Virus record (IMG/VR): IMGVR_UViG_3300046517_002304
Span: 124,001-188,000 of that record
From: a virus
DNA length: 64,000 bases
Strand: one strand, 5' to 3'
Both the position numbers and the translations under genes were made by a program. The notes under the pieces are model-generated. The model worked only from the letters and a program-made list of their open reading frames with translations. It was not told the origin of the DNA and did not search any database. The first letter of the stretch is position 1, and every line of letters begins with the position of its first letter. Below, piece by piece: positions 3,073-62,750 of the stretch.

Positions 3073-3081
3073 AATCTACTA

Positions 3082-3089
3082 TATTTACT
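3082..3089 (-). promoter_or_regulatory. Late-promoter-like box AGTAAATA
   Basis: The box lies 9 bases before the ATG at 3072 and resembles the T4 late consensus TATAAATA in its TAAATA core. It falls at the 3' end of the adhesin gene. Weak single instance, supported by the same core before other genes of the window. Confidence 0.25.
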
Positions 3090-10872: not shown

Positions 10873-11271
10873 TTAAGAAATTGAGACTGTAAATTGCTTT
10901 GTATCTACCGTCGCCGTAACGCTTGCGCCAGAATTATTACTAATATAAACTTCAAATTTGCTAACCCTGTCGCCTGGAACATTAAATGTTCTATGGTAGG
11001 TTGTGCTAATCGCATATGGCATCGTGAATCCCCAAGGGGCATCATTGGTAGCAGATTCGTAGGTTGGAGTGTCGTCCACCATTCTTAATACATTAACAAT
11101 AACTCCCTGTGTTGCCGTTCCACCGTAAGCAATCGTAACAGAAACTTCAGTTCCTACTTTACCAGAATTTGAAATTGATGCTGTAGTGGAACTACTTGTA
11201 TTAGTAATAGTGGAACTTGCGATGCTTGTCGCTGTCCACGTTGAATCCCAATTAGTGCTGATTGTTGCCAT
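10873..11271 (-). CDS. Small beta-rich virion protein (putative)
   Basis: 132 residues, Ser/Thr-rich with alternating hydrophobic strands and no helix-forming stretch or signal peptide, as expected of an Ig-like or jelly-roll virion protein. It lies 45 bases upstream of the giant adhesin on the same strand, so it could be an adhesin chaperone, a tip protein or a head decoration protein. I do not recognise a named family. A TAAATA-type box precedes it closely. Confidence 0.6.
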   Translation of the reverse strand: MATISTNWDSTWTATSIASSTITNTSSSTTASISNSGKVGTEVSVTIAYGGTATQGVIVNVLRMVDDTPTYESATNDAPWGFTMPYAISTTYHRTFNVPGDRVSKFEVYISNNSGASVTATVDTKQFTVSIS

Positions 11272-20541: not shown

Positions 20542-21006
20542 TTAGTGTAGTTGGGCCATAGATGAGCGTGAATTAAAAGGCATTACTTTAGATTTAGCTA
20601 ATTTACAAGATTCGATACGGTGAAATCTTCTAGTATCTCCCTTGTATTCGCGAGCAGTAATTCCTATTTCACCAGAAATTAGATCGTGATTTTTAGAGTT
20701 TTCGTGCCATAAGGTTGAGTATGCATTTAAATACCAAAGATCTTTGAAAATTGCGAGAGCATCTGTTTCATTAAATTTAATTATATTTATGCTAAAATAC
20801 GGAACCAAATCTTCCAACTGCTTAAAGGATTGAAACTGTTTTGCATGAGACAAAAGATATCTAAGATTGGTTATAGTCCCATATTCACTGTACTCAATTT
20901 CGGGTAAGTTATTCGGATTATCTGGATTAAATGTTTTGGCATCTAGTCCAGATACTAGTGGTAATGCAGCCAAGCCAGTTAAAATAGCATTTCTTCTAGT
21001 AATCAT
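20542..21006 (-). CDS. Exported protein with Tat-like signal
   Basis: 154 residues. MITRRNAILTGLAALPLVSG has a twin-arginine core (TRRNAIL) and a hydrophobic stretch, like a Tat signal peptide, then a probable cleavage region near SGLDA. The mature part is mixed and of no recognised family. The gene overlaps the end of the GMP reductase gene by 11 bases, so it is translated with it. If real, it would be exported folded by the host Tat system, which is unusual for a phage protein. Confidence 0.6.
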   Translation of the reverse strand: MITRRNAILTGLAALPLVSGLDAKTFNPDNPNNLPEIEYSEYGTITNLRYLLSHAKQFQSFKQLEDLVPYFSINIIKFNETDALAIFKDLWYLNAYSTLWHENSKNHDLISGEIGITAREYKGDTRRFHRIESCKLAKSKVMPFNSRSSMAQLH

Positions 21007-22057
21007 AATTTTCTCCAGAACTTGTATTTTGGTGTATCTTACTCACTTGGACAAATGTTGCACACTTGCCCATATCTTTAATTGACGTAGAGCCTATATA
21101 AGCGCAAGATGAACGAAGTCCACCTAAAACTTCTTGTATAATTTTATTAACAGAACCTTTATACTTTATATTCATTACTGCGCCCTCTGATGCCCGGTAG
21201 TCTTTAATTGAACCATATTTAGATTGCGCATAATGCGTTGACATGCCATACCATGTCATTTCTTTTTTAGAACCATCAGGATTAAGTATCCAGTCAGCGG
21301 ATGAACATTCGTCTGTTCCGGAAAGCATAGTTCCGACCATTACGAAGTCGCCGTTCCCGCCAAACACCTTGCATATATCGCCGGGATACTTGCATCCTCC
21401 GTCACTGCATACTAGTCCTAGTCTTTTTTCACCAGACTTAAGGCCATGAGCAACTTGCGAACATTCTTGTACTGCACTGAATGTTCCATATCCTACGCCG
21501 GTAACTAACCGAGTGCGACATGCCGCCCCAGGGCCTATTTGTATTTTTACTATATCAACACCACCATGAATAATTAACTCTTGGACCATTTCGGGAGTTG
21601 TGATATTTCCTGCGCATATAATAGATTCTGGAAAATGATTTCTCACATCTCTACAGAACCCAACAAAACTTTCCATATATCCATTGGGGACATCAATTAC
21701 AATATTTGGTTGGACCCCAGTTAACTTACGATATGTGATTAACTTGTCAAGTCCTTCTTGTTCTTTGCCTATAGACATCCATAGGTAATCGGTCCCGATT
21801 TCGTTGATATAATCTGCTAGAACTTCAGGATTATAATACTTGTGTAGAACTGTAATAATTTTGTTTTTAGAAAGCTCCCTTGCCATGTCAATAGTCGCAA
21901 TGGGAACCATATTAGATGACATAATTGGAATACAGGTTAGCTCTCTTGGCGAGTGGTAAAACCTAAGCTTGCGCTCCAACGATACATCACTTCTACTATT
22001 TAATGTTGACCTTTTTGGTACCATGAGAACGTCATCAAAGTCAAGCTTAAATTCCAT
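20996..22057 (-). CDS. guaC: GMP reductase
   Basis: 353 residues, about the length of E. coli GuaC (347). It converts GMP to IMP with NADPH, releasing ammonia. Conserved stretches follow the family throughout: DDVLMVPKRSTLNSRSDV at the start, IIAGN-type ICAGNITT, the catalytic loop IGPGAACRTR with Cys180, TGVGYGTFSAV, SDGGCKYPGD, FVMVGTMLSGTDEC, then LGGLRSSCAYIGS. The GuaC-type IGPGxxCxTR loop and absence of CBS domains favour GMP reductase over IMP dehydrogenase. With PRPP synthetase and the deaminase-like gene it forms a nucleotide block. It could shift the guanine pool towards adenine in an AT-rich phage (inference). Confidence 0.9.
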   Translation of the reverse strand: MEFKLDFDDVLMVPKRSTLNSRSDVSLERKLRFYHSPRELTCIPIMSSNMVPIATIDMARELSKNKIITVLHKYYNPEVLADYINEIGTDYLWMSIGKEQEGLDKLITYRKLTGVQPNIVIDVPNGYMESFVGFCRDVRNHFPESIICAGNITTPEMVQELIIHGGVDIVKIQIGPGAACRTRLVTGVGYGTFSAVQECSQVAHGLKSGEKRLGLVCSDGGCKYPGDICKVFGGNGDFVMVGTMLSGTDECSSADWILNPDGSKKEMTWYGMSTHYAQSKYGSIKDYRASEGAVMNIKYKGSVNKIIQEVLGGLRSSCAYIGSTSIKDMGKCATFVQVSKIHQNTSSGENYDY

Positions 22058-29770: not shown

Positions 29771-31204
29771 ATGCGATTTCGTGCCTACCTAGAGTCGTTC
29801 GGCTCGTTTAATTATAGGGTTCCCAATGACCCAGAAGAGCAATTATACGACTTCTATATGCTTAATTGGCTTAGGGGCAGAAATTCGCTTTATAACAAAG
29901 CTAATCAACATGGGTTGGCTATCTCACCTAAAAAGCCAGAATATGGCGGTGACATGGGCCATGAAGACAAAATAGATTATATGTTAGATGAAGTCGCACA
30001 TACTCTAATCCCCAAGCTTAAATCCGACTTCCTTAAGGCAGTGCTATTCGGCATTACTGCGGAAATGCGGCATGTGCCTCGTGAAATGGGAGATTATAAA
30101 AATTTTTCGGCTAATATAGCAGACGGCGTCGGCGAGAGATACGCAAAAATATACAATGATTTTTTTAGTTATTATAATTATGATAATTTTAAAGACAAAA
30201 TGGCAGAATTTAATAAATCTGTTCCTGTAAAAGACAGAATGTTTAGAAATGTTAAAAATTTCGTAGATCCGCATAATGCCGATTTTCTTCATTATAATAT
30301 GACCGGTAGAATGGCCGCTTATCGCAGTATGTTAAAAGGCGGCTCTACTGAGAGAGATTTCGTAGAAATGGCTAAATTTACGTTTGCGAACGGTAGTTGG
30401 CAGGCTAGCTATGGTGGCCAACCATGGGCAAATGCTTGTGATGGATGGCTGCAATTATATGATTCAAAAGGTGAAAATTCTGATATAGTCGCCATTGATC
30501 ACATTTATGATCTACAGCATAATAATGGTTCTGTTTTAAATAAAGTAGCTAAGTATATTAAGGGGGGAAATACTACATGGCTCAAAACTGCTTTGGATGA
30601 TAAGGCGCAGTCTAATGGTCCGATGGATATAGTGGATAAAGTATCGTCAAGCATGAGAGAACTAGCTTTGCCGGCCATAAAATTAAAATTTGGAACAACG
30701 TATCAAGACAAGGCATCTGCGGAAATTTCACCATATAAAGGCTCTTATGAAAACCAATATTTTTTGACTGGCCATGACTGGAGTGCCTACGAAGGAGCTT
30801 ATCATAGTTCTTCAATTCCTGAATTAAAGTTAGTGCGACTTGGGCTATATCTTGGTTGGTCGCCTAAAAAGGTTACATTAAAGGATATTGAAAGGTTAAA
30901 AAATACTTTAAAAGTTCCTCAGTTAGATGACGCGCGGATAAAGAAAGTGCTTACATCTGAATACAATAATAAAAGAAACATAGAAACTGGTAACTTTAAA
31001 TATGTAAAGGTTAAATTAAGTAGTGATTTAATACGGGAAATAGACAAATTTATAAGGCTAAAAGACACCTGGCTATATGAAGCAGTAGTTAAAAAAATAG
31101 ACAGTGAAACTCATTATGGATATGCAGCATCAAAATACTTATATGGCTACTGCGCATCATTAGTCGGTAAACAAAGAAGTATAGATGAGGTCGTAGAGCC
31201 ATGA
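29771..31204 (+). CDS. Probable packaged head protein, paralogue A
   Basis: 477 residues. MRFRAYLESFGSF is a capsid-targeting-like N-terminus. It is paralogous over its full length to the next gene; residues 10-80 are nearly the same in both (NYRVP, DPEEQLYDFYMLN, RGRNSLYNKANQHGL). Later shared blocks are DFVEMAKF, ACDxWLQLY and RNIETGNF. No membrane segment or enzymatic motif that I recognise. The two genes overlap by 4 bases and are cotranslated. Probably internal head or ejected proteins (inference). Confidence 0.6.
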   Translation: MRFRAYLESFGSFNYRVPNDPEEQLYDFYMLNWLRGRNSLYNKANQHGLAISPKKPEYGGDMGHEDKIDYMLDEVAHTLIPKLKSDFLKAVLFGITAEMRHVPREMGDYKNFSANIADGVGERYAKIYNDFFSYYNYDNFKDKMAEFNKSVPVKDRMFRNVKNFVDPHNADFLHYNMTGRMAAYRSMLKGGSTERDFVEMAKFTFANGSWQASYGGQPWANACDGWLQLYDSKGENSDIVAIDHIYDLQHNNGSVLNKVAKYIKGGNTTWLKTALDDKAQSNGPMDIVDKVSSSMRELALPAIKLKFGTTYQDKASAEISPYKGSYENQYFLTGHDWSAYEGAYHSSSIPELKLVRLGLYLGWSPKKVTLKDIERLKNTLKVPQLDDARIKKVLTSEYNNKRNIETGNFKYVKVKLSSDLIREIDKFIRLKDTWLYEAVVKKIDSETHYGYAASKYLYGYCASLVGKQRSIDEVVEP

Positions 31205-46132: not shown

Positions 46133-46297
46133 ATGAGCAATTATTGGATTGATTTGATAAAAAGAGAAGAAGAATTAGAAAAATTACGCAAAGAACAAGA
46201 ACGCCGCGATTTTGAGATAATTTATCAAGAACTTCAAATGCGAGAAAAGCTAAAGGCCCTTTGGAACTCACAAAGGAAACAAGGCCAGAAAGTTTAG
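46133..46297 (+). CDS. Small coiled-coil protein before terminase
   Basis: 54 residues: MSNYWIDLIKREEELEKLRK followed by a continuous charged helix. Its stop lies 2 bases before the terminase ATG, so the two are probably coupled. The YWIDLIKREEELEK start recalls 41423 and 42231. In T4 the small terminase gp16 precedes gp17, but this protein is far shorter and homology is not shown. Confidence 0.5.
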   Translation: MSNYWIDLIKREEELEKLRKEQERRDFEIIYQELQMREKLKALWNSQRKQGQKV

Positions 46298-46299
46298 TA

Positions 46300-48027
46300 A
46301 TGGGTGGGATAGACTACGCCGCTGAATATAAAAAGTGCGCAAAAGACTTTGTTTACTTTTGTGAAACCTATGTTAAAATTCGGCATAGCACTAAAGGCAA
46401 GGTGCCTTTTAAGCTATATGATTACCAAAAGCGCACTCTTGAAGATTTTGAAAATCATAGGTACAACATAGTATTAAAATTTAGACAGGGCGGTTTAACT
46501 ACGCTTGCCGTTATATGGGCCGCTTGGAAGGCAATGTTTAACACAAAGCAGAATCAAATCTCTTTCGTGTCTAGAACTGATCGCGAAGCAAAAATTTCTG
46601 CTCGTATCGTTACATTTTTTCTTCATGAGTTGCCGGATTGGTTAAAACCAGAAATGGAAGCGCGTCCAGCAGCACATGAAAAGAAATTCATGGAAACTGG
46701 TGGATCTATAATATTTTCTACTGTTAAGGCGGTTCGCGGTCGTTCATTGGCATTATTAATTATAGACGAAGCGGCATTCATTTCAGATATGGAAGAAAAC
46801 TGGGCTGACTTACAGCCTGCTCTTTCTGGTGGCGGTAGATGCATTGTAATTTCTACGCCTAAGGGAAAAGGTAATTGGTATGCTGTTGAATATCATAAGG
46901 CTCTTAACAATGAAAATCAGTTTCATGTAATTGATATTGACGTATCAGAACATCCAGATTACAATAACCCAAAGTGGATAGCAGAACAAAAATCTGCTCT
47001 AGGAGAAAAAAGATTCGGTCAAGAAGTTTTACGCCAATTCTTGGCTCCAGGCGAAACATTTCTTTCCAATAGTTTAATTAATGACTTAGATCTTGCCACT
47101 AGGGGAACGCCACCGATGGCTAGAAGATTTCCGCTGTGGGACACGACCACTAGAGATGGGGAAAAAGGCGCTTTATGGATATGGAAAGCGCCTGTTGAAG
47201 GCAAAGATTATATTATTGCTGCGGATAGCGGTGAAGGCGTAGGCGAAGAGGGAGACTTTAGTGCCTTCCAAGTTTTTGACGTTGCGGAATGTGAACAAGT
47301 TGCTGAATTTTATAGCAACTCTATTCCACCATATACGTATGCCCAAATCCTTAGTCAGATTGCTACATCTTATAATTACGCAAATTTAGTGGTTGAAGGC
47401 AACGGTCCTGGTATTGCTACGCTGGCTGAATTAACAAGCAAATTATTTTATACACATCTATATGGAAAAAGAGTTAGAGACGGTTTTAAGCCAGGATATT
47501 TAACAGGTGGCACAAATAGAGTCGCAATGTTTGATACGCTCCAAGCAGCGCTTATGAATAAAACAGTTGTGTTAAAAAGCACAAGATTGATCAAAGAGTT
47601 CAATACATTTATTTTTAATGCATCTAAGAAACGTCCTGAAGCCGCAAAGGGAACTCATGATGATTTAATCATGGCCTTAGCGATTGCGCTGCAAGTGCGC
47701 AGTGAGTTATATGCTAACATAGCTAGGTATACTCCATCAGCCGAACATATTAAGGATATTGCTCCGAATGCCTTATCTATAAGCGCAATCAAAGCAGAGT
47801 TAGAAACTTTATTTAGCTCAAGCTACCCATCTTACAAAGATGGACCTCCGCCAATTATAGATCCAAATGAAGAAATATTTGGTAAAGATATAAATGAAGC
47901 AATGTTTAAACAACATCAGGCCGCGCGCTTTGGAAATGATGTCTTAAAAGAATTTGGATGGGCCGTTTTGCCGTTTATTTTTACTGCTTGTGAAGTATTA
48001 ACAAATTCGGTTAGTGGACTAGCCTAG
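46300..48027 (+). CDS. terL: Terminase large subunit, T4 gp17-like
   Basis: 575 residues from the ATG at 46300; a TTG at 46261 would overlap the small upstream gene. ATPase: adenine motif YDYQKRTLEDF, Walker-A-like LKFRQGGLTTLA (the variant form with Lys before the loop), Walker B LALLIIDEAAF, coupling motif CIVISTPKG. Nuclease: YIIAADSGEGVGEEGDFSAF with the first metal-binding Asp, LVVEGNGPG, and the final GTHDDLIMALAIAL. It cuts and pumps DNA into the prohead through the portal encoded downstream. Confidence 0.95.
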   Translation: MGGIDYAAEYKKCAKDFVYFCETYVKIRHSTKGKVPFKLYDYQKRTLEDFENHRYNIVLKFRQGGLTTLAVIWAAWKAMFNTKQNQISFVSRTDREAKISARIVTFFLHELPDWLKPEMEARPAAHEKKFMETGGSIIFSTVKAVRGRSLALLIIDEAAFISDMEENWADLQPALSGGGRCIVISTPKGKGNWYAVEYHKALNNENQFHVIDIDVSEHPDYNNPKWIAEQKSALGEKRFGQEVLRQFLAPGETFLSNSLINDLDLATRGTPPMARRFPLWDTTTRDGEKGALWIWKAPVEGKDYIIAADSGEGVGEEGDFSAFQVFDVAECEQVAEFYSNSIPPYTYAQILSQIATSYNYANLVVEGNGPGIATLAELTSKLFYTHLYGKRVRDGFKPGYLTGGTNRVAMFDTLQAALMNKTVVLKSTRLIKEFNTFIFNASKKRPEAAKGTHDDLIMALAIALQVRSELYANIARYTPSAEHIKDIAPNALSISAIKAELETLFSSSYPSYKDGPPPIIDPNEEIFGKDINEAMFKQHQAARFGNDVLKEFGWAVLPFIFTACEVLTNSVSGLA

Positions 48028-48934: not shown

Positions 48935-51430
48935 ATGGCAGATTGGCTACAACCATTTAAAGCATTCAGCGGTTCTTTTACAGAACCACCTGTTGCGCAG
49001 ATCACAAGTTTAGACAGAATACAACCCGCTGGTATTACTCAGCCCGATGCATTGTCTTTAAAAGATAATTCTGCCCTACAGGGCAATCGCTTTATTGCCC
49101 TTAGAGACACAACCGACCTAGTGGATCTATCTGTAAGTAATCAGGCACGCAACGGCAGGTATATGGAACTTGAGCGTCTTAGAAATATGGTAGAAATTGA
49201 AACTGCCTTAGCCATATATGCTGATGAATGTTGTGTATCTGGGGACACAAAGGTTTATACTCCATTTGGAAAGATTAAAATTAAACAACTGGCACAGGAA
49301 AAACAGCCAGATGAACTGTTCCTTGTATATTGCTATGATTTTAAGAAGAAGGATTATACTCTTGGATGGGCATTTCATCCAAGACTTGTTAAGAGAGCCG
49401 AAACAGTCCAAGTAATTTTTAGTAATGGCAGAAAAGTCGTTCTAACACCAGATCATCGTATATTAAAAACAGATGGAACGTGGTGCATGGCAGGAGATTT
49501 GCAGTTCGGCGATGAGACGATGCAATTCAACAGAGTCCAACCATTTGTTAGTATGAAGAAGTTGACTCAAAATAGATTTCCAAGAATTAAGAGCGCTAGA
49601 TTTGGATGGCAGACAGAAAAATTACTAGTGGCAGAGTGGGAAGCAGGAGGTGTGCCTCAGGAATTTATCAGAGAGCATCAGATTACGCAAGGGCTTACTA
49701 AAGGAATGTCGTTGCAGGAAGTTGCAGATTCTATAGGAATTCATGTAAGAGGACTTAGAGAACAAGTTCGCAATAAGAATATTTCGCTACAAGAAATTCG
49801 TAGACTTAACGATACTTATCCAGACAAACTAAGGGTAGCTAAAGTTATACCACATGATGTGATGGATGTATATGATCTATCTGTGCAAGAGCATGAAAAT
49901 TTTTGCACCAATGGTGGTATTATGCATAACTGTCAGTTAGGCGAGAACGGTCGCTGCTTAGAAATACACACGGCGAATAAGGATGTTAAAAGACTTTGCG
50001 AAAGATTATGTCATGAAGATTTAGAAATGGACGATGCTTTGTGGGGATCGCATCGCAATCTATGCTTATATGGCGATGAATTCTGGGAACTAGTTATTGA
50101 CCCAACATCACCAAAAGACGGTATTCTCAAAGTACAGTCCTTACCAGCAGCAACAATGTATAGAATTGAAACCATTAGAGGAAAGCTTCTAGAGTTTCAG
50201 CAGAGTGGAACTGGCGCAGATATTCAGGCATTAGCCAATCCAGACTTGGCACAAAGCACAAGCGGAGCGATTAGATTCACTCCGCAACAGATTGTACATT
50301 TTCGTTTAGGCGGCGATAGAAGAATGTTTTATCCATATGGAGAATCTATTCTAGAATCAGCTAAATCAGCAGCGCACCAACTGCGATTAATGGAAGATGC
50401 AATGACCGTTTATAGGCTTACCCGCAGCCCATCCAGACGTATTTTCTATATTGATGTTGGTCAAATGCCACCGGCAAAACAAGAATCTGCCATTGAAAGA
50501 GTCATGGCGCAATTTCGTAAAAAGAAAGTATTTAATAATAGAACAGCATCTGGTCTTAATTCATCTGGCGTAGAAGAACGCTGGAATCCGGTTTCATTTG
50601 ATGAAGATTTTTGGATTCCACTAAAGACCGGAGACAATACCAGAATTGATACATTAAACGAAGGCGTTTCCTGGAATCAGATTGATGATATTCTATATTT
50701 TAGAAATAAACTTTTGATTGCGCTAGGATTGCCCAAGAGTTATTTGGCACAAGAAGATCCTGCGTTAACACGATTAAATTTATCATCACAGGACATTAGA
50801 TTTGCTAAGCGAATTGAGCGACATCAAATGGTCGTCGCGCAGGGTATCCGACAGTTATGCAAGAGACACTTGGAGTTACTAGGTTTTCCTGCTCATGAAT
50901 TTTCTGACTTAAGAATTAAGATTACCCCATCTTCTGACTGGCGCGAAATTAGCAGAAATGAAGTTACTGAAGCAAGATTCAATAGAGCGTCTGCCATAAA
51001 AGGCGCAGGATTAATGAGCGACTACGATATTTTGGTTGAAGTTCTAAAAATAGAACCAGAAAAATCAAAAGAACTAGTGTCCAGACTCAAGATGCAAAAA
51101 CTGGATGAAATGAAGCTTGCTGCAATGGCTGCTAATCCTAGATTTTTGGGACTTGCGGAAGAATCTCCGACTAATGAAATCGGCACAGAAGCAGGAGGTC
51201 CGATGACAGACTTATCTCCAGAGAGCGGTGCCGAAGCACAGGGACAGGGGCAAGAAATGGGACAAGAATCCCAAGGCGAACAAAATCCACAACAAGGCCA
51301 AATGTCACTATTGCCCGAGCCTTCAGATGACGATATAGTTAAGTATAACATGCATATATCGAATTATGCTCGTGAAATGGACTCTGAGGATATTGACGCC
51401 GGGGAATTAAATGAAGATAATCAATCTTGA
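48935..51430 (+). CDS. Portal protein, T4 gp20-like, interrupted by an intein
   Basis: 831 residues before splicing, 598 after (T4 gp20 has 524). Extein joins ALAIYADEC (to residue 99) with CQLGENGRCLEI (from 333). Later portal features: HRNLCLYGDEFWELVID, IVHFRLGGDRRMFYPYGES, DAMTVYRLTRSPSRRIFYID, RFAKRIERHQMVVAQGI. The C-terminal 100 residues are Glu/Gln/Gly-rich, probably disordered. The portal forms the dodecameric DNA entry channel. GGAG ribosome site. The last 20 bases overlap the next gene. Confidence 0.95.
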   Translation: MADWLQPFKAFSGSFTEPPVAQITSLDRIQPAGITQPDALSLKDNSALQGNRFIALRDTTDLVDLSVSNQARNGRYMELERLRNMVEIETALAIYADECCVSGDTKVYTPFGKIKIKQLAQEKQPDELFLVYCYDFKKKDYTLGWAFHPRLVKRAETVQVIFSNGRKVVLTPDHRILKTDGTWCMAGDLQFGDETMQFNRVQPFVSMKKLTQNRFPRIKSARFGWQTEKLLVAEWEAGGVPQEFIREHQITQGLTKGMSLQEVADSIGIHVRGLREQVRNKNISLQEIRRLNDTYPDKLRVAKVIPHDVMDVYDLSVQEHENFCTNGGIMHNCQLGENGRCLEIHTANKDVKRLCERLCHEDLEMDDALWGSHRNLCLYGDEFWELVIDPTSPKDGILKVQSLPAATMYRIETIRGKLLEFQQSGTGADIQALANPDLAQSTSGAIRFTPQQIVHFRLGGDRRMFYPYGESILESAKSAAHQLRLMEDAMTVYRLTRSPSRRIFYIDVGQMPPAKQESAIERVMAQFRKKKVFNNRTASGLNSSGVEERWNPVSFDEDFWIPLKTGDNTRIDTLNEGVSWNQIDDILYFRNKLLIALGLPKSYLAQEDPALTRLNLSSQDIRFAKRIERHQMVVAQGIRQLCKRHLELLGFPAHEFSDLRIKITPSSDWREISRNEVTEARFNRASAIKGAGLMSDYDILVEVLKIEPEKSKELVSRLKMQKLDEMKLAAMAANPRFLGLAEESPTNEIGTEAGGPMTDLSPESGAEAQGQGQEMGQESQGEQNPQQGQMSLLPEPSDDDIVKYNMHISNYAREMDSEDIDAGELNEDNQS
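49232..49930 (+). mobile_element. Mini-intein in the portal gene
   Basis: 233 residues (100-332). Cys100 starts block A (CVSGDTKVYTPFGKIKIKQL), block B is GRKVVLTPDHRILK with the TxxH pattern, block F is VYDLSVQEHENFCTNGG and the end is IMHN followed by Cys333, the usual HN-C junction. There is no LAGLIDADG or HNH nuclease; instead residues 256-292 contain a helix-turn-helix-like segment (MSLQEVADSIGIHVRGL). Splicing should be competent because all key residues are present. Confidence 0.9.
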
Positions 51431-51810: not shown

Positions 51811-52251
51811 ATGAATCAATCTCAAATGATAAATTTACTAATCGGTGATTTAAAAAACGAATACCATCACATGAATTTTTACTTGTGGGCGTCGGTCGCG
51901 GTTTCTGGACTACATAGGGAAGAATTTTCTGAATTTTTCTCCGAAGCGGCTAAAAGCGAAATGAGTCATGTTAGGGAATTTTATAATGCATTGCTTACAT
52001 TAGGGTATATGGCCGTTCCGCCAGATCAACAGGCGGCAGATTATATAGAAGCCACTACATTAACTGATGTTACGTCATTATTAAAATATGCCATAGGCAT
52101 GGAAGAACAGGTTGTGGCAAATTATACCCAGAGAATAAAGGATGCCGAACAACTAGGCGGATCGGACGGGAAATATCTGGAAATATTCTTAGAGAATCAA
52201 CTTTTAGATTCTAAGAATGATTCTACTCATATGCAGCAGATGATGAAGTAA
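51811..52251 (+). CDS. Ferritin-like diiron protein
   Basis: 146 residues in four helices. Ligand candidates are Glu17 (LKNEYHH), Glu50-x2-His53 (SEMSHV), Glu98 (GMEEQVVANY) and Asp137-x2-His140 (DSTH), where bacterioferritins normally have ExxH. A Dps/bacterioferritin-like iron store or oxidase is likely, with a weakened second site. It follows the module protein by 1 base in the portal operon. Purpose in a phage head operon is unknown. Confidence 0.7.
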   Translation: MNQSQMINLLIGDLKNEYHHMNFYLWASVAVSGLHREEFSEFFSEAAKSEMSHVREFYNALLTLGYMAVPPDQQAADYIEATTLTDVTSLLKYAIGMEEQVVANYTQRIKDAEQLGGSDGKYLEIFLENQLLDSKNDSTHMQQMMK

Positions 52252-52311: not shown

Positions 52312-53136
52312 ATGCCGTTTTTTCAAAATGTGTTTAATGCTGATTATACCGGAGTCATGGTACTCGGGGATAGGAACTTACTTTTAAATTTTAATGTTCC
52401 TGGTAATAGAAATAATCGTCACGATTTCGTAAGCTGGAACACCCAGACATACAATGTATCGTCTAACAAGACTCTTACCATCAATTATTCATTTGACACC
52501 AAAAACTATGTAACCTTGGCCATAGATGTGTCTACAACTGCGGCAAGCGCAGCGGCAGCACAGGCCAAAGAAATTGTTAGCGCCCTAACAGCCAATGCCA
52601 CTTTTGCGACATATTTTACTGCGGCAGTAACAAATGCTAACGCCGTTCGAATTCAAGTTGCAAATCAGCATATGGAAACCATAATAAGAACTTATATTTC
52701 CAATACTGGGGCCGAAATTGCGCTTAAGTTCAACACCTACGCTGGCGTAGCCGAAATTCCTACTTATTTTGCCAGACATACGGTAGCCAACGCTAATGCT
52801 TACCCCGATTCTGCCGCAACACTAATACAGTTGGACGGTAGCGTTCCTGCTGACCTTGCTATCATAAGAAATGCGATTAATAACCAAAGTTGGACGACCG
52901 CCAACTTACTAAGCGATTATCAGATGTTTAAGGGTCGTTCTGGAATATTTAATTTCCAGAAAATTACTATTGATGGATCTAATAGAATTACTCAGATCAT
53001 TGAATATCCTGCTGGCGCAGTTGCCGGGGATTTTGCTAAACGAACCACATATATATATTCAGGCAGCAACACTAATCCGAGTCAGATTACTGAAGAGCCT
53101 TATACGTTAATAACAAGCGATTTAATTATTCCTTAA
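52312..53136 (+). CDS. Probable virion structural protein
   Basis: 274 residues, Asn/Thr/Ala-rich and beta-rich with a helical Ala stretch (TTAASAAAAQAKEIVSALTA). A late-type box, good ribosome site and regular codon use suggest an abundant virion protein, possibly a tail-tube or decoration protein. No family recognised. Confidence 0.55.
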   Translation: MPFFQNVFNADYTGVMVLGDRNLLLNFNVPGNRNNRHDFVSWNTQTYNVSSNKTLTINYSFDTKNYVTLAIDVSTTAASAAAAQAKEIVSALTANATFATYFTAAVTNANAVRIQVANQHMETIIRTYISNTGAEIALKFNTYAGVAEIPTYFARHTVANANAYPDSAATLIQLDGSVPADLAIIRNAINNQSWTTANLLSDYQMFKGRSGIFNFQKITIDGSNRITQIIEYPAGAVAGDFAKRTTYIYSGSNTNPSQITEEPYTLITSDLIIP

Positions 53137-53147
53137 GGAACAATACA

Positions 53148-53525
53148 ATGACAGACAAAGAAGTAGAAACAAGAGTTAGAGAAGTTAAAGACGAACAAGG
53201 AAATGTCATTGAACGGATTACTGAAACTTGGGTAGAAAAAGTTCCAATGGAACTTAAGAACCGAGTTGTGGAGAAAATCTCTGCTGTTCCAGTTGTTCTA
53301 GAAACCAAACTTGAAGTCTATGAAGACGGCAAGATGGTTGACTCTAAGCAAGAGTCACTTACTGGCATGGTCAAGGTATGCGAAGGCAAGAAAGAAAAAT
53401 TTAAGGGACTTGCAGATATGCAGGATCGTGTATCCGATTCTATGTCAAAAAAAGGAATGAATATCGGATTGATTGCCATTATACTTGGACTAGTGGGCTA
53501 CATTGTATACACAGTAGTTGTCTAA
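53148..53525 (+). CDS. Tail-anchored membrane protein
   Basis: 125 residues: a charged N-terminal beta/coil part (RVREVKDEQGNVIERITETW) and a single C-terminal transmembrane helix (IGLIAIILGLVGYIVYTVVV), a tail-anchor topology. AAGGAA ribosome site, 11 bases after the structural gene. Function unknown. Confidence 0.6.
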   Translation: MTDKEVETRVREVKDEQGNVIERITETWVEKVPMELKNRVVEKISAVPVVLETKLEVYEDGKMVDSKQESLTGMVKVCEGKKEKFKGLADMQDRVSDSMSKKGMNIGLIAIILGLVGYIVYTVVV

Positions 53526-53553: not shown

Positions 53554-54720
53554 TTAAAGATTGAGTAATTGTCTCAATTCTTTATTTGCAGCTCTCATTT
53601 TTCCTTTTAGGTATTCTACAGATCCCAATACTTCATCGCCGTATTTTTTACTAATGTCTTTCATTATTACGGTATGGCCGGTGACTTTTTTAACGTAGAA
53701 CTTAGTGCCTTTATGAGCGACAACTCCATATCCCCCATTGGTGCACATAAGGTTGAGCTTAGTCATAGAAACATATATTGTTCCCGCTTGTATGGCATTA
53801 CTATGCCTTTCGTCAAAATTGCTGCCAACGAACGCATCTTTTAATTCATCTAATTTAGCGTACCACTCTGCTCCTGTTGGTTGAGTTTTAACAAGAACGC
53901 ATAGAACATTTGATACTTTAACCGCTTTAATATTGGGTATTGCTATTTCCGCTCCCTTTAACATGGTGATGTAATCACCGTTAAAATGGATTTGCGCTTT
54001 TTCGCGCTTATCGTGATGAGTAATAACAAAATCATATGCCTTTATATCTTTGGCAAGCATAAAGACATATTGGTCTACCTTAGTAGTAGCATTTTCTGGA
54101 TAAGACTCACTGCTTGATCGATTAATCTTTTTGACCTGGCATCCATCAGATATATTTGGTAAAGTGATTTTTTCTATAGATACAGAAACAGTTTTTTCTT
54201 CTTCGCATTCTTCTGGTTTTTCATCGTCGCTGGCAACGACTTTGAGAGGAACAAATTCCTGAAATACTGCATTGGAGTGAAAATAACATTCCCATAAGAG
54301 GAACCTTCTTATGACAAATGCATTTTTATAATCTTCAATAATAATCTTATCTTTAAATTTCCCTATTCCTTTACAAATAACACGATATAAACCAGGCTCA
54401 GCAATGGACTTTACTACTCCTGCTCCAGCCCACACAACATCTAATGGTTTTTTAACTTTATACACTTTGCCTGTATTAACGCATTCGCTGTGTTCATTTG
54501 TTTTTTTTGTAAAACTGAAAAAATTATCTACGGGCATAGGGGGGAGAATTTCAGTATCGTAGTTAAGAGAGCAAACAACCTTAATGCCAGACTGCTCGTT
54601 TCTTATTTTTCTAACATATAGAACATCATTGCGCTCAACAGTATGTCCCATACAATGGGATTTGAGCGTGGCTATGTAGTAAGCGCCAACCTTCGGAAGT
54701 TTAGTCTCGTGTCTTGACAT
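53554..54720 (-). CDS. SH3-like repeat protein (4 repeats)
   Basis: 388 residues from the ATG at 54720, which overlaps the end of the longer repeat gene by 20 bases; an upstream non-ATG extension is rejected. About four units of 70-90 residues follow the pattern VGxxYxxxK, GxxLxVxxI, then two strands and a short helix with F (for example PKVGAYYIATLK and NTGKVYKVKKPL). They look like small SH3/KOW-type barrels. Same repeat as the upstream 938-aa protein, so the two may be a split of one gene. Confidence 0.55.
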   Translation of the reverse strand: MSRHETKLPKVGAYYIATLKSHCMGHTVERNDVLYVRKIRNEQSGIKVVCSLNYDTEILPPMPVDNFFSFTKKTNEHSECVNTGKVYKVKKPLDVVWAGAGVVKSIAEPGLYRVICKGIGKFKDKIIIEDYKNAFVIRRFLLWECYFHSNAVFQEFVPLKVVASDDEKPEECEEEKTVSVSIEKITLPNISDGCQVKKINRSSSESYPENATTKVDQYVFMLAKDIKAYDFVITHHDKREKAQIHFNGDYITMLKGAEIAIPNIKAVKVSNVLCVLVKTQPTGAEWYAKLDELKDAFVGSNFDERHSNAIQAGTIYVSMTKLNLMCTNGGYGVVAHKGTKFYVKKVTGHTVIMKDISKKYGDEVLGSVEYLKGKMRAANKELRQLLNL

Positions 54721-57517
54721 TCCTGTATCTTTTCGGGATGGCATCAAAGATTTCTTTGGTTTTGACAAAGGCCCATTTTGATTTTTCGCCGTTGCCATTT
54801 CTCCAGAAAGCAGCACTCCAAGAGTCAGAATTTGTCGCAAATATGTCAACCATAGTTCCTTTTTTAATAGGATGTTTTAAGTGCATTATAAGGTCATCTT
54901 CTCTGCTGTATGAAGGCGTGTCTTCCAGCAAGACAACATCTTCTAATATCGGACGCCCCAATGGGCAATGAATAAATTCATCTTCTGCTACATTTCCATC
55001 TTCTAGTTTGATTTTTACTGTTTTACACCCTTCAGATATTTTACCATCTATTTTGTCAATTACAACGTCAAATTTTTGGTCTGTTGCGTGATATTCTGTG
55101 CACCAATTAAAATCATCAGCATAACAATATACCGGAGTAGGGAATGAAGGTACCGTGATACCTAGAATGTCTTTTGACTGATGCCTAAAGCTTACAAATA
55201 TTATGTCGCCGATTTCGGCAAAAGTCAGCGGAGATGTATAATTTGTAGGGGTCCGACGAATCCCGTCTAAATACTTCCAATATTGGAATTTGTGAGTGAC
55301 AAGATAACTGCGCCCAACGACTATATCTTCATAATCAAACGGCGGCTCTTCCGTGGTGGAGCCGTATATTGCTTTTAAAAATTCGTTTTTACTCACCCAC
55401 TGATAAAAAAGTCTATTTTCAAAATCATGTGTAGAAATTTTTACTGCACAAGTATCATAAACTTCATGAACTAGTATCAATGATCCAGCAGGATGCAGAA
55501 TCGCTCCGTTCAATGTCGGTAATTGGGTTTTTAACTTATACTCTCGGCCAATTTCGATAACTGTTTCGGTATTCGTTTTTATTTCTTTCTTCTCAATTAT
55601 TCTAGAAAAAAGAGACTTGGTAACAAAAAACGGCGATTTCAGTGTTGGATAATCGCATGAAACATCATACCCAGATGAATGATATTTAATTACTGTAAGC
55701 GTTCTATTTTCTTTGTGCGGGAATCCAAAATATCTAGCGCCAAATTCATTTATATTATAAACGCTTCCTTCTGAAAATTTACTTTGTTTTTTTGTTTTTA
55801 CTTGCCATGCTTTCGTTGTATGCGCTAATAAAACGTCCTTTTCTATATCGCTTCGTAGAACTTTTTTATTTATAACATTCAGCCATGTTACATATTGAAC
55901 TGCCACCAAATTATTTTTTATTTCTACAACATCTAGTACTGTCCCAAGTTCAATGCACTCATACGGCTTATTTTTTAAAACTATTACCTTAGCGACCCGG
56001 TATAGTTCTCCTATTTTTATTTCATGATTTGGTTTTACTTTTGATTTATCTATTTTTACTGAGTGTGCATGTAAAACTGCCGTAGCTACGCTAATAGGCG
56101 TAATTTTAGATGATACAGATTGCACCAGAACAAAACTATTTTGTATTTTTATAACTTCTAGTATAACTCCAGCGATGACATAGTTATTATCACACAGCGC
56201 CATCTCTTTTATAACCTGGTATTTGTCTCCGACCATTACGCTACTATCATACTGGATTGTTTGTAGAGCAGATGACGCTAAAAATATTTTCTTTTCAAAA
56301 ACTAAAACACGGCCCTTTTTATTGCTACCGTCATCAGAAAGCATATATGTCACAACATTGTAATCGTCAACGCTTTCTATGCGCAGCAAGTTTCCTACTT
56401 GTGTGGTTAAGCCACTTTGGATATCGCTTATGCTCTTAGTTAAAGCATAAGTTTGGCCTACTATTAAGCGTTTGGCCAATGGAGGAAGCATAACAGTATG
56501 CATTTCTTGCAGATGACCGTCTTTTATAGCCGACAGTAAACTACCTAACGAAGCATCAAGAAAGAATCTAGAGTTTTCGTCTCTTTTATTACTTGACACG
56601 GACGCAATTAAGTTGTTTTTTATTTTTAAAACTGTGATTGTATCAAGACAGCTAGCTAACAGATTGCGGCCTGAATCAGCGCCGAGTCCATTTAGTCCTA
56701 TGCCACTTTTTGGAATTACTAAAAATTCACTGCCAACCAAATGTTCATGGTCTGGCTTTACATCGTTGCCTTTGGGAGCGGCTTTGTTTTTGGATTTCGG
56801 CGATGACTTGTGATGGTGTTCCCAAAATTCATCTTCATCACGCCATGCGAAAGAAATATACCGATCCCTTTCGCTGGTTAAATAACATCTTGTTGATATT
56901 CTGGCATCTTTATTGGACCCAATAGCATGTATTTCCACCATGCTATTTGCTTGAACAATTCCGTCTATTGCGTTGATGGTCTTGTTTGTTATATAAACTT
57001 GCCCGACTTTCAGAGCAGATTTCTTTTTGCCTGATATTAAAGCGAAGTTTTTAGTAAATTCACTTTTATCTACAAAGATATTGTGGATAGTATCTTTGCC
57101 GCGTTTTGTAAGCTTTAGATATTTTGACCACTTTCCTTGACATTGCTCTATTACGCTAAATGTGGAATCTTTATGATCGTCTACAGATAATATTTTTGAA
57201 CTATTTTTAGGAGGTAACCGTCTAGAGCATATAGTATCATGAATTATTTTATAAGACTTGCCTACGTATTCACACTCTATTTCGGGAATCCCCTCTGTAT
57301 TTTCGTCAAATACCCTATATGGGATTGTTGTGGGACAGTATGTCTCATGGTTGCGATATACAAGCGCTTTAATAGCATCACTTTTGATTCTTACTTCATC
57401 TACGTATAGAACATCGCCAGGTAAAAATTTGTGCTTTTTCCCTGTACTAAACTCTTTGGTGACCTTGAAGTAGTCGCCAATTAAGTAAAGAGCGTCTTGT
57501 TGGATAGCAATGTTCAT
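54701..57517 (-). CDS. SH3-like repeat protein (about 10 repeats)
   Basis: 938 residues with about ten to eleven repeats of 70-90 residues. Repeat starts include LIGDYFKVTKEF, YVGKSYKIIHDT, KVGQVYITNKTI, IVGQTYALTKSI, MVGDKYQVIKEM, KIGELYRVAKVI, EIGREYKLKTQL and VVGRSYLVTHKF, each followed by G-x-x-L-x-V and further strands. Predicted small beta barrels in a chain, probably binding nucleic acid, peptide or cell-wall polymer. No signal peptide or catalytic motif. In an operon with the MscL-like gene. Confidence 0.6.
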   Translation of the reverse strand: MNIAIQQDALYLIGDYFKVTKEFSTGKKHKFLPGDVLYVDEVRIKSDAIKALVYRNHETYCPTTIPYRVFDENTEGIPEIECEYVGKSYKIIHDTICSRRLPPKNSSKILSVDDHKDSTFSVIEQCQGKWSKYLKLTKRGKDTIHNIFVDKSEFTKNFALISGKKKSALKVGQVYITNKTINAIDGIVQANSMVEIHAIGSNKDARISTRCYLTSERDRYISFAWRDEDEFWEHHHKSSPKSKNKAAPKGNDVKPDHEHLVGSEFLVIPKSGIGLNGLGADSGRNLLASCLDTITVLKIKNNLIASVSSNKRDENSRFFLDASLGSLLSAIKDGHLQEMHTVMLPPLAKRLIVGQTYALTKSISDIQSGLTTQVGNLLRIESVDDYNVVTYMLSDDGSNKKGRVLVFEKKIFLASSALQTIQYDSSVMVGDKYQVIKEMALCDNNYVIAGVILEVIKIQNSFVLVQSVSSKITPISVATAVLHAHSVKIDKSKVKPNHEIKIGELYRVAKVIVLKNKPYECIELGTVLDVVEIKNNLVAVQYVTWLNVINKKVLRSDIEKDVLLAHTTKAWQVKTKKQSKFSEGSVYNINEFGARYFGFPHKENRTLTVIKYHSSGYDVSCDYPTLKSPFFVTKSLFSRIIEKKEIKTNTETVIEIGREYKLKTQLPTLNGAILHPAGSLILVHEVYDTCAVKISTHDFENRLFYQWVSKNEFLKAIYGSTTEEPPFDYEDIVVGRSYLVTHKFQYWKYLDGIRRTPTNYTSPLTFAEIGDIIFVSFRHQSKDILGITVPSFPTPVYCYADDFNWCTEYHATDQKFDVVIDKIDGKISEGCKTVKIKLEDGNVAEDEFIHCPLGRPILEDVVLLEDTPSYSREDDLIMHLKHPIKKGTMVDIFATNSDSWSAAFWRNGNGEKSKWAFVKTKEIFDAIPKRYRNVKTRD

Positions 57518-57524
57518 GAGCGCT

Positions 57525-57998
57525 CTATTTGCGGGGGCGAATTTTGATCTGTAGCTCTATGCCGCTCAACTTATGTTCATTATAAAAAACATCCATGGCG
57601 TCAATTTTTGCTTGCACATCATCTACAGAGTCTACTTCGCAGGTTTGGTATTCTTCGCCAAGGCCGCGATTGTACATAGCTGTCGCGACGAATTTCTTTT
57701 TCGGCACGAAGCTCATAAATGTGTCTATGCGATCTTCTACATCTATCATAGACGAATACTCTTCTACGTCAAATGTTTTTGAATTCATGGGTGTGGCATA
57801 CTTTTGTAAAAAGAAGTTGCCTTCGTGTTCGTAAACCAAAAACCCTTTATTGTTAATATCTTGCCAGAATGCAACGTCGTATTTCGGTTTAACCGCAGCA
57901 ATTTCGGGTACCTTATGAGCTATCGCACTATCATCACCCCTGTCCTCGGTACTTTGGTATCTTTCCATTTTACTGAAAAAGTCGTCAAGTTCATTCAT
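57525..57998 (-). CDS. Unknown acidic protein
   Basis: 157 residues. N-terminal disordered acidic part, then a mixed alpha/beta domain (KYDVAFWQDINNKGFLVYEH, FVATAMYNRGLGEEYQTCEV, VQAKIDAMDVFYNEHKL). AAGGTG ribosome site. Seven bases upstream of the long SH3-like repeat gene. No family recognised. Confidence 0.5.
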   Translation of the reverse strand: MNELDDFFSKMERYQSTEDRGDDSAIAHKVPEIAAVKPKYDVAFWQDINNKGFLVYEHEGNFFLQKYATPMNSKTFDVEEYSSMIDVEDRIDTFMSFVPKKKFVATAMYNRGLGEEYQTCEVDSVDDVQAKIDAMDVFYNEHKLSGIELQIKIRPRK

Positions 57999-58037
57999 GG
58001 CACACCTTGTTAAGAAACAAAAATCTGTTTACGATTA

Positions 58038-58526
58038 TCAGAGGCCCCAGTTTTTCTGCAAAAACTCCACTGTTCTCTTTACCCATCCTTGCACTTCTTT
58101 TCCTTCTTCTTGCTTCTGTGTTTCTAAATACCTGATTTCCGCCTTAGCCGCAATAGCATACATCTTTTCCATGAAAGCCTCCCATTCGTCGCCTGGGACG
58201 AAAGTTGTGGCGATACCGTCGCTTTCTACGTACACTTTATCAGAAAACCAAGTTACTGTCAATGTCTCTGCGTCGGACAAATACATTATTTCAAACTCTT
58301 TTCCGTATGGATACGCCTGAAACAACCATCCCATTTGCCGGGATGATTCGTCAGACTCAAAAATTTCTTGCGTCATCAATTCCCATTCTGCATGAGTGTA
58401 TTCGCCTTGGTCAATAATTGGCTTCCCGATGTGCTTAACAATACTTCTTGCCTTTATAGAAATTTTTTTCTGCGTTGCTTCTTCCCGCCGCTTTTGAATA
58501 ATCTGATTAATCTTTGTACTATCCAT
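58038..58526 (-). CDS. Unknown protein
   Basis: 162 residues; basic N-terminal helix (NQIIQKRREEATQKKI), a central domain with WLFQAYPYGKEFEIMYLSD and TLTVTWFSDKVYVESDG strands and a C-terminal helix. Overlaps the MscL-like gene by 8 bases. No family recognised. Confidence 0.5.
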   Translation of the reverse strand: MDSTKINQIIQKRREEATQKKISIKARSIVKHIGKPIIDQGEYTHAEWELMTQEIFESDESSRQMGWLFQAYPYGKEFEIMYLSDAETLTVTWFSDKVYVESDGIATTFVPGDEWEAFMEKMYAIAAKAEIRYLETQKQEEGKEVQGWVKRTVEFLQKNWGL

Positions 58527-58980
58527 CTGTTAAATCCTTTATGCAATATGGACAACGTGTGGCGCGAACATTAATGATCATCTGACAATACTGGCACGTT
58601 TTCTCTATATCTGACTTAGGGCATATTTTGTTTAATAGAGGGGTGAAAAGCTTCATGTAAAAAACATATAAGCACACAGAAATAATCAAAAAATCTAAAG
58701 TAGACCCAACAAATTTGCCGGCTTCTATGGTTAGACCATCGTAAATTTTGAACTCTAGATTTCTCCAATTTCGTTCTATCGAGCTATTGGTTAAAAAGCC
58801 TATTACCGGCATTAGAATGTTTTCTGATAACGCCGTTACCATTTTATTAAAGGATGTTGCCAACATTAAGGCAACAGAAATTTCTAACATGTTTTTCTTA
58901 AGAGCAAATTCACGATACTGCTTGATTTCATCCTTTATTTTTTCAGGGTCAAATGCGTGTTGGACGTGGTGGTGGCTCAT
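58519..58980 (-). CDS. mscL: MscL-like mechanosensitive channel with zinc ribbon
   Basis: 153 residues. The start of the channel domain (YREFALKKNMLEISVALMLA, then SFNKMVTALSENILMPVIGF) aligns with MscL TM1 (FREFALRGN type) and its MPP/LG loop; a periplasmic loop leads to TM2 (TLDFLIISVCLYVFYMKLF). The C-terminus has C129-x2-C132 and C143-x2-C146 (RATRCPYCIKDL), the zinc-ribbon tail known in some bacterial MscL proteins. Canonical MscL opens under membrane tension. It is the first gene of the operon 58980-53554. It could help lysis, ejection or osmotic control (inference). Confidence 0.8.
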   Translation of the reverse strand: MSHHHVQHAFDPEKIKDEIKQYREFALKKNMLEISVALMLATSFNKMVTALSENILMPVIGFLTNSSIERNWRNLEFKIYDGLTIEAGKFVGSTLDFLIISVCLYVFYMKLFTPLLNKICPKSDIEKTCQYCQMIINVRATRCPYCIKDLTDG

Positions 58981-60570: not shown

Positions 60571-60960
60571 ATGAAGAAACTCATCTTATTATTCTTAATG
60601 TGCCTTTCGGGCTGCGCCATCAGTCCTTTTTTAGGCCCAGCAGGGGATGCTATTGTTGCTTGGAAAGATGGGGAAGCGGACAGATACTATAATGCTAGTT
60701 CCGAAGCAATCTACAAAGCTACTAAGAGTAGTCTCATAAAATTAGGTATACCCATACTGAAAGATGAAGCCGTACGACCTGGAACTTATAATTTAGTTGC
60801 GGGCCATGGCGATAAGTTTAAGATTAATATAACAAATAAAAATATTCACATAACTTGCGTTAAGATAAGAGTTAATTTTATGGGCGATCATGATTACGCT
60901 GAGTTAATTTTTGGCACTATATCTAAAGAAATATATGTGATTAATTTTCCGAAAACCTAG
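60571..60960 (+). CDS. Lipoprotein, DUF3568-like
   Basis: 129 residues. MKKLILLFLMCLSGCAIS is a lipoprotein signal with LSGC lipobox. The mature part (WKDGEADRYYNASSEAIYKA, KFKINITN, VKIRVNFMGDHDYAELIF) follows the pattern of small DUF3568-type bacterial lipoproteins. It would be anchored in the periplasmic face of a membrane. Possible roles are superinfection exclusion or envelope change (inference). Its end overlaps the convergent GNAT gene by 20 bases. Confidence 0.65.
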   Translation: MKKLILLFLMCLSGCAISPFLGPAGDAIVAWKDGEADRYYNASSEAIYKATKSSLIKLGIPILKDEAVRPGTYNLVAGHGDKFKINITNKNIHITCVKIRVNFMGDHDYAELIFGTISKEIYVINFPKT

Positions 60961-61315
60961 GTCGCCATATCATAGTTGGCCCAAACATACTTGATAATCT
61001 ATAGTCCTTATTTCTGCCCTTATTGTGCACAAACCCTAATTTAGTATAAAATCTAAGTAGTGCCGCTTTTTTACCTGGTCCTGGTTCAGGACTCAAAACT
61101 ATCGGCTGGTTGATTCTCTTGGCGAAGTTTTGGATTTGCTGCATTACAGCAGTGCCTATACCTTCGCCGTGACGAGGGGTCTCAATATTGGAAATATGTA
61201 TCACCCCATCTTGTGACTGGAATACCCATAGATCTAATCCAGTGTATTTAGCTATTAGCTGTTGACGCAGAGCCTCCAGCTCTGCGTTTTCTTCTAAGAA
61301 TAACTTAAAATTCAT
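60941..61315 (-). CDS. GNAT acetyltransferase with capsid-targeting-like start
   Basis: 124 residues from the ATG at 61315, overlapping the peptidase gene by 11 bases. MNFKLFLEENAELEAL resembles the targeting pattern, with LEE as a possible (L/I)-x-E cleavage site. The GNAT core is clear: HISNIETPRHGEGIGTAVMQ with the R-x2-G-x-G acetyl-CoA loop, PIVLSPEPGPGKKAALLRFY, and TKLGFVHNKG. If packaged, it could acetylate a host protein after injection, as T4 Alt modifies RNA polymerase by another reaction (inference). Confidence 0.75.
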   Translation of the reverse strand: MNFKLFLEENAELEALRQQLIAKYTGLDLWVFQSQDGVIHISNIETPRHGEGIGTAVMQQIQNFAKRINQPIVLSPEPGPGKKAALLRFYTKLGFVHNKGRNKDYRLSSMFGPTMIWRPRFSEN

Positions 61316-62750
61316 TAAAGTATAGCCTATGAAGCTTTCCGCCAGACACGGCATGGGTTTTGGTGTGGAATTTTGAATAATCGATTGAATCAACAAATTC
61401 AACATCATTTTCAGCAACCAATTTATTGACCATAAACATAGCTGAATCCATAGCGCTGTCTTGATCTACGCTTAGCTCCTGTATCATACATCCAACTTTA
61501 TTAAATTCCATATAATGCTCGCTGGCAATTTCAATCTCAACGCCAGCCATACTAGCATTAAGAGCCACAAGACCATGCGCCTCTGGAATTTTAAAGCTAC
61601 AAACGCCCTTTTTTCTGACAATAGTTGTATCATTTAGCTGCCAAACTGTGTCCATGTCGTTAATTTCAATATCATCAATGTTTTTTTCACTTAACATTTT
61701 AATAGCAGGCTTTAGTATTTTACGACGAACGAAGGCGCTTTTAATTACAGCCTCGTATTTTGGAAAGTAGCTTCTAGCAGAAACCACCATTGCATTAGCA
61801 ATAGCTGCATAAAATCTATTGGTCAATGGAGCTAGTGTTAGGCACTTAAAATATATAGACGCCATTGCATCCCTGGCAGAAACAAGAGCATCATGAGCGG
61901 TCACGCCGTTTTTACGGTCTAGATTATACATTCCAACAAATGCTTCGTACCAGGCTCCGGTAAACACTCTGCTGAAACTATGGCATTCTCCACCGAGTTT
62001 CCCGTCGCCAGATGTATTATATGGTAGAGATTCTGGTATTGTATACATAAAATCATTGACTGCATTTCTAAGCGCGTCAGATAACCCTGCTCTCCCATCG
62101 GTCATACGATTAATCGCTACGCCCATTTGTTCCGCAAGACGAGAAATAAGATTACTTTTACTTAAGTCATCTCCAGTTTCAACCAAAGCATCTTTTATTA
62201 GTTCTTCGTGTTGTAGCGCGCTAAGGATTGCCATGGTATCGCCAAATGCTTCGTGAAACGCCGCAGTTTCTAAACATTGAACATTCCATAGGTCTGGACG
62301 AACTCCGTCTAATATAGCATGGCCAAGCTCGTGCGCGACAATGTCAGGTGACTCACAAGTATAGACTGTTTTGCCGTCTTTGTCTTTATCATAGAAAAAC
62401 TTTAAAGCTTGACGATCATAATAAGCATTAAATTGAACGCCTGCGCGAGGGAATACACTCAAGTTATTTATAGACGACCAACGATGCAGAGCGTGCATTA
62501 AATTAGGTTGAACAAATCCAAGAGTAAAGGCTAGAGTAGAATATACCTGCATAACTTGTGGGTCATTTTTATCACCGACGAGCGTAAAGACTGGGCACGG
62601 ATTAGGAAGGTTAGGAATATTAATCTTAACTTTTTCTGGAACCGATGGATCATCTAGAATATAATCAAAGTCCGAACCAATTGTTGGATTCATTGATTTT
62701 ACATTTGATTGTCGGTTAAAAAAATTGCCTAAGAATTTAAAGAATTGCAT
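61305..62750 (-). CDS. M4-like (thermolysin-type) zinc metallopeptidase
   Basis: 481 residues. H140-ELG-H144 in SPDIVAHELGHAILDGV and Glu167 in ETAAFHEAFGD give the HExxH plus Glu zinc site of thermolysin-type peptidases. A NTSGDGKLGGECHSFSRVF region fits the second domain with the usual His. There is no signal peptide or propeptide, so it acts in the cell or is packaged; the start MQFFKFLGNFF is only weakly like the targeting pattern. Late-type box upstream and GGAAA ribosome site. The GNAT gene follows with overlap. Confidence 0.8.
   Translation of the reverse strand: MQFFKFLGNFFNRQSNVKSMNPTIGSDFDYILDDPSVPEKVKINIPNLPNPCPVFTLVGDKNDPQVMQVYSTLAFTLGFVQPNLMHALHRWSSINNLSVFPRAGVQFNAYYDRQALKFFYDKDKDGKTVYTCESPDIVAHELGHAILDGVRPDLWNVQCLETAAFHEAFGDTMAILSALQHEELIKDALVETGDDLSKSNLISRLAEQMGVAINRMTDGRAGLSDALRNAVNDFMYTIPESLPYNTSGDGKLGGECHSFSRVFTGAWYEAFVGMYNLDRKNGVTAHDALVSARDAMASIYFKCLTLAPLTNRFYAAIANAMVVSARSYFPKYEAVIKSAFVRRKILKPAIKMLSEKNIDDIEINDMDTVWQLNDTTIVRKKGVCSFKIPEAHGLVALNASMAGVEIEIASEHYMEFNKVGCMIQELSVDQDSAMDSAMFMVNKLVAENDVEFVDSIDYSKFHTKTHAVSGGKLHRLYFNEF

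Follow-up and report, generated by a model that had tools for sequence, protein, structure and literature searches.

MscL channels of huge T4-like phages: a viral clade, with an overlapping partner gene in six lineages

The DNA analysed here comes from a huge T4-like phage that carries its own version of the mechanosensitive channel MscL. Judged by the gene orders compared below, this channel and a coupled partner, P4, form a conserved unit that huge T4-like phages carry next to their head genes.

Results

Layout of the gene cluster

The virus record (IMG/VR IMGVR_UViG_3300046517_002304) has 511,233 bases, and the window, the whole stretch of 64,000 nucleotides that was analysed, covers its bases 124001-188000. 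In agreement with a preliminary description of this DNA, the open reading frames at 53554-58980 make up a minus-strand cluster of five tightly packed genes that starts with an MscL homologue; gaps between them measure 7-39 bases and overlaps 8-20 bases. The cluster and its relevant neighbours are as follows:

46261-48027, plus strand: large terminase, 46% identical to that of phage LR756511; head-gene context
48935-51430, plus strand: portal with an intein-like insert, 47% identical to that of LR756511; matches gp20 of T4-like phages
53148-53525, plus strand: TA, 125 aa, a single membrane segment at its C-terminus; a conserved neighbour that runs towards the operon
53554-54720, minus strand: 388-aa repeat protein with up to four weaker repeats; its ATG at 54720 gives a 20-base overlap with the 938-aa gene
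54701-57517, minus strand: 938-aa repeat protein with ten repeats; 7-base gap from P5
57525-57998, minus strand: P5, 157 aa, soluble-looking, following P4 after a 39-base gap
58038-58526, minus strand: P4, 162 aa, soluble-looking; its start overlaps the MscL stop by 8 bases
58519-58980, minus strand: MscL homologue, 153 aa, first gene of the cluster (PF01741, 3hzq, AF2 model, zinc ribbon)
61305-62750, minus strand: M4-like metallopeptidase (HELGH), a conserved neighbour that flanks MscL on the side away from P4

A gp23 capsid protein of the T4 type is encoded in the same window. The membrane segment of TA was located from hydropathy; six relatives of TA could be aligned, and the gene has the same position in relatives. 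The metallopeptidase matches PF01447 at E 0.0018, which is below the cut-off, and is 39% identical to its LR756511 relative. A DUF3568 lipoprotein-like gene lies at 60571-60960 (PF12092, 50.3 bits) and also occurs beside the M4-like peptidase at the related loci L024, L103 and L106.

A divergent MscL with a zinc ribbon

The 153-aa protein matches PF01741 (E 1.3e-18; 67.9 bits, curated cut-off 27.4), and the closest solved sequence is S. aureus MscL (3hzq, E 3e-16). It stays below the NCBIfam equivalog cut-offs (51.9 bits versus 71 for TIGR00220 and 66.9 versus 197 for PRK13953); on these scores it is a divergent family member, outside NCBI's named equivalogs. The zinc ribbon noted in the preliminary description is present as a C-terminal CxxC...CxxC motif, CQYCQMIINVRATRCPYC. 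That the ribbon might be a phage invention was ruled out, as MscLs of Myxococcota and Clostridia carry one.

An AF2 model built from 22 viral rows comprises an N-terminal helix, TM1, an external hairpin, TM2 and the ribbon, with helices at residues 12-26, 29-63 and 87-119. Its confidence is medium (pLDDT 72, pTM 0.41), and the five best PDB matches of this single chain are all MscL (prob 1.00, TM-scores to query 0.38-0.42), in line with the channel assignment made earlier. Residues are numbered as in E. coli MscL and were compared with Salmonella MscL as the reference row. At the gate, L19/V23 correspond to I34/L38 of the window protein and are hydrophobic throughout the viral rows, and N15, K31, P43, G76 and F85 are retained. 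G22 and G26, on the packed face of TM1, are both Ala, and the bacterial C-terminal EIRDLL helix is missing. No holin family was matched by the phage MscL in PHROG, and no MscS was found in the window record.

Viral MscLs form one clade

Single-sequence scans of viral contigs with MscL or P4 returned no relative; relatives were found by way of the portal, which is 47% identical to that of the 595-kb phage LR756511 and led to 80 loci on related viral contigs, and with profiles. Of 50 related huge-phage records, 11 contain an MscL that exceeds the cut-off, and a profile scan of viral contigs gave 32 viral MscL loci. The earlier statement that phage MscL is rare thus holds among named phage records but not in this huge-phage clade, where the gene is common.

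In a tree of 22 viral and 55 other, mostly bacterial, MscLs, all 22 non-redundant viral proteins group in a single clade (SH-aLRT 100), separate from the bacterial proteins sampled. The tree neither dates nor roots this clade, because it was computed on 129 columns by a quick search, with bacterial rows found by a contig scan that used a four-row alignment and phage-derived patterns. The same 22 proteins all match PHROG phrog_25692. Between close viral pairs (dS above 0.1) dN/dS is 0.03-0.20, and by this measure viral MscL is under purifying selection. The channel is nevertheless not essential, because many relatives have P4 without MscL at that place and LR756511 has none anywhere in its record; searches of the records of L076 and L080 found none either. 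Ribbon-less viral MscLs are usually located elsewhere in the genome, beside a small lipoprotein-like gene.

Most MscL matches in the 'phages' collection had to be set aside as unusable, being Salmonella or Acinetobacter contigs with mscL amid bacterial genes, or short unannotated records. In AFYI01000003.1 of that collection, mscL stands among ordinary bacterial genes with trkA adjoining, and in CAKLQH020000002.1 it does so with typA and mutM adjoining. In two related huge phages, a gene for a caspase-like peptidase with a signal-like N-terminus (PF00656, 28.3 bits, over the cut-off) adjoins MscL (L086:417-1355 and L087:1994-2932).

P4 is coupled to MscL

MscL lies directly upstream of P4 in six lineages (the window, L103, L106=L084, L108=L109, L011=L085 and L089), and the pair sits beside the terminase/portal block. 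The start of P4 overlaps the stop of MscL in all six: the overlap is 8 bases long in L103, L108 and the window (in L106 too, if one of its two possible starts is used), 4 bases in L085, and 62 bases in L089, there from a TTG start. The P4 proteins of these lineages are only 22-30% identical to that of the window, and the pairing is therefore not a matter of recent copying. Across the six lineages the peptidase flanks MscL where the contig reaches that far and TA lies beyond P4; the M4-like peptidase is adjacent to MscL in L103, L106, L108 and L089, and three more small genes stand between the two in the window.

Homologues of P4, which is single copy in the window record, are found in LR756511 and many related loci. 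Six of these (L002, L074, L076, L080, L073 and L010) have P4 without an adjoining MscL, and the P4-P5 order is retained in L021-L024, L033 and L027. The C-terminus of P4 is conserved as WG[IL]; a P4 profile gave weak, unrelated matches in Pfam and PDB, with no recognisable domain.

The SH3-like repeat proteins are found in one phage

The 938- and 388-aa proteins consist largely of divergent repeats of ~70-90 aa. Repeat motifs start ten times in the larger protein (aa 13, 85, 171, 261, 353, 429, 502, 583, 656 and 734) and four times in the smaller, and the repeats are 10-34% identical to the first alignment row. The best ungapped 30-residue self-match scores 45-46, compared with 28-33 in ten shuffles. 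In leave-one-out profile tests of 12 repeats, six scored above all 300 shuffles, three were reached by 5-11 shuffles, one was reached by 19, and two were indistinguishable from chance. On account of these results about ten repeats are solid; weak ones, located mostly in the 388-aa protein, are part of the total of about 14 given in the preliminary description.

The repeat at aa 656, modelled by AF2 with six other repeats as the alignment, gave a small beta barrel (pLDDT 90, pTM 0.75) with the five strands of an SH3-like fold. Its top PDB matches are SH3 domains (prob 1.00, TM 0.69, E 0.03), as the repeat name in the preliminary description had led one to expect, and its viral structure matches include single-domain small proteins of other phages. 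The sequences matched nothing over the cut-off in Pfam (DUF7444 at E 0.012 came closest), nor any SH3 entry in PHROG, NCBIfam or the PDB sequences. The SH3-like identity is thus supported, at the level of the predicted fold only, for one modelled repeat.

A repeat profile searched against 32 related records as wholes found none, with the phage's own genome as the only control (7/7 of the building repeats recovered), and tblastn with the repeat proteins in phages and viral contigs gave no relative beyond one 100% identical contig. In L024, P5 (3158-3526) and TA (2560-3105) are adjacent with no repeat genes between them, whereas in the window 4 kb with both repeat genes separates the two. As far as these comparisons reach, the repeat proteins are a private addition to this phage that fills a site where relatives have two adjacent conserved genes. 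Co-occurrence of the repeats with MscL was consequently rejected, and the combination of MscL with SH3 chains is therefore not a conserved system. Of the gene order expected to recur in related huge phages, the MscL-P4 part does so and the repeat part does not.

Further features of the window and related loci

ATAAATA, sought as a shared late-promoter motif, is mildly enriched upstream of genes, and not clearly present before MscL. ATAAATA-like motifs, as in T4 late promoters, lie upstream of the genes at 10873, 3085 and 29771, and CATAAATAGTAT immediately precedes 3085-10827 and 29771-31204.

In the head block, the intein-like insert of the portal gene starts with CVSGDT and ends with HNC; a similar insert is present in the same part of the portal gene in LR756511, L011, L024 and L027. 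A ferritin-like protein (PF00210) is encoded at 51811-52251 and occurs at the same place in several relatives. A relative of the protein encoded at 52312-53136 is fused to RCC1-like repeats in L024:468-2399, and the head-block proteins of L024:6858-7277 and L027:6862-7221 consist almost wholly of aspartate runs. Elsewhere in the window, an IMP dehydrogenase-like gene is found at 20996-22057 (PF00478, E 4e-54), and 12174-14231 has FkbM methyltransferase, TPR and glycosyltransferase-9 matches within one chain.

Discussion

MscL is the textbook osmotic safety valve, and its role as a tension valve is established for the family; its native pore lets through small proteins only. The most likely reading of the phage protein, with a probability of about 0.45, is a late-expressed tension valve of the host membrane that guards against premature bursting. 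The channel would be made late, together with the head proteins, a timing that we infer from the head-gene neighbourhood only, and would insert as a pentamer into the host inner membrane. Opening at near-lytic tension, it would release osmolytes, and a cell that a long infection has swollen or weakened might thus stay intact until assembly of the large virions is complete. The zinc ribbon would lie on the cytoplasmic side, at the inner mouth of the pore, and may bind P4, or a factor held by P4; this contact could set the gating or the place of the channel. The SH3-repeat proteins would be a multivalent scaffold peculiar to this lineage and acquired into the same transcription unit, with a hypothetical physical tie to the channel. 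In favour of the valve are the family match, the modelled two-TM topology, the hydrophobic gate, purifying selection, the single clade, the P4 overlap and the gp23-type capsid gene; against it stand the Ala residues at G22 and G26, the missing EIRDLL helix, the lack of a clear shared promoter motif before MscL, the absence of MscL from this place in many relatives with P4 and a P4 without recognisable domain.

Membrane tension, lysis and exclusion, all named as possible roles in the preliminary description, cannot be separated by sequence. It is unlikely that MscL times lysis like a pinholin, accumulating until it opens spontaneously or via P4, depolarises the membrane and so starts lysis. The gene does encode a membrane protein and has late genes close by, as well as genes for lipoprotein-like and tail-anchored products, and the ribbon-less viral MscLs adjoin a small lipoprotein-like gene; yet most endolysins could not pass through the native pore, the surroundings of MscL yielded no lysis gene, close relatives that lack it must lyse too, and with no PHROG holin family matched, the sole holin-like hit (E 0.34) was to P4. 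Its place in the head-gene neighbourhood, overlapping P4, a core gene of the head block, would also suit a channel carried in or made for the virion that acts as a pressure relief or a conduit while the DNA is ejected. We consider this improbable: relatives with the same head block lack MscL, virions do not usually contain a two-TM channel, and the ribbon-less viral MscLs sit elsewhere in the genome.

A plain osmotic auxiliary gene of host origin, kept for hosts whose habitats are salty or fluctuating and without any particular link to P4, would be in keeping with the patchy presence of MscL among related records and with the reported rise of viral MscL abundance with salinity in estuaries (PMC13288924). 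One viral clade instead of repeated captures, and the same place with the P4 overlap in six lineages, make it a rather poor candidate. The preliminary description had treated the channel and the SH3 chains as one new machine for exclusion, defence or envelope remodelling, and this we regard as very improbable. In this single genome the genes do lie on one strand and are closely spaced or overlapping, but the repeats occur in none of the 32 related records (own genome as the only control), tblastn gave only an identical copy, P5 and TA adjoin without them in L024, and the channel is kept with other partners elsewhere. Nothing points to defence: PADLOC models did not match MscL, P4, P5 or the 388-aa protein, and the 938-aa protein had a single hit at E 0.013. 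A valve that delays rupture fits best, because MscL is known for keeping cells from bursting, its pore would hold back most endolysins and some relatives dispense with the gene.

Beyond the valve itself, it is conceivable, if doubtful, that MscL and P4 of huge T4-like phages are an old tension sensor of two components, specific to phages, in which the co-translated P4 gates or places MscL through its cytoplasmic ribbon and cell rupture is timed or delayed, and which SH3-repeat scaffolds extend in this phage. The conserved overlap makes P4 a direct, testable partner for MscL, and should P4 or the zinc ribbon control gating, the result would be a regulated MscL; to our knowledge, none has been described. 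Retention of a viral MscL as one clade linked to head genes would imply active management of host turgor by huge phages. The SH3 chains represent a large, unexplained type of protein, for which this phage is so far the sole source.

Compared with known systems, the phage protein has the parts of bacterial MscL (PF01741; S. aureus 3hzq, M. tuberculosis 2oar, M. acetivorans 4y7k), a common family with an N-terminal helix, two TM helices, a hydrophobic gate and an external loop. It differs in belonging to a separate viral clade, in lacking the EIRDLL helix, in overlapping P4 and in having Ala for G22/G26. The zinc-ribbon MscLs of Myxococcota and Clostridia have the same C-terminal CxxC...CxxC after TM2 and fall on the bacterial side of the tree. 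The PHROG family shared by all the viral proteins is listed there as of unknown function, not annotated as MscL and given no context. The MscL of estuarine Caudoviricetes, likewise on viral contigs, was reported as a salinity-linked osmoregulation gene; the available part of that report gives an abundance correlation and contains no analysis of clade, domains or gene neighbours (PMC13288924). A literature search that covered few subscription papers found no description of MscL in huge phages, of a viral clade or of the partner P4. Small SH3-like phage proteins such as the 72-aa protein of Bacillus phage AR9 match the repeat model in fold, but are single-domain, as against about ten domains in tandem here, with no detectable sequence relationship. 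The SH3-chain proteins are thus new sequences of a known fold, and the viral MscL clade with its coupled partner appears to be a new form of a known channel.
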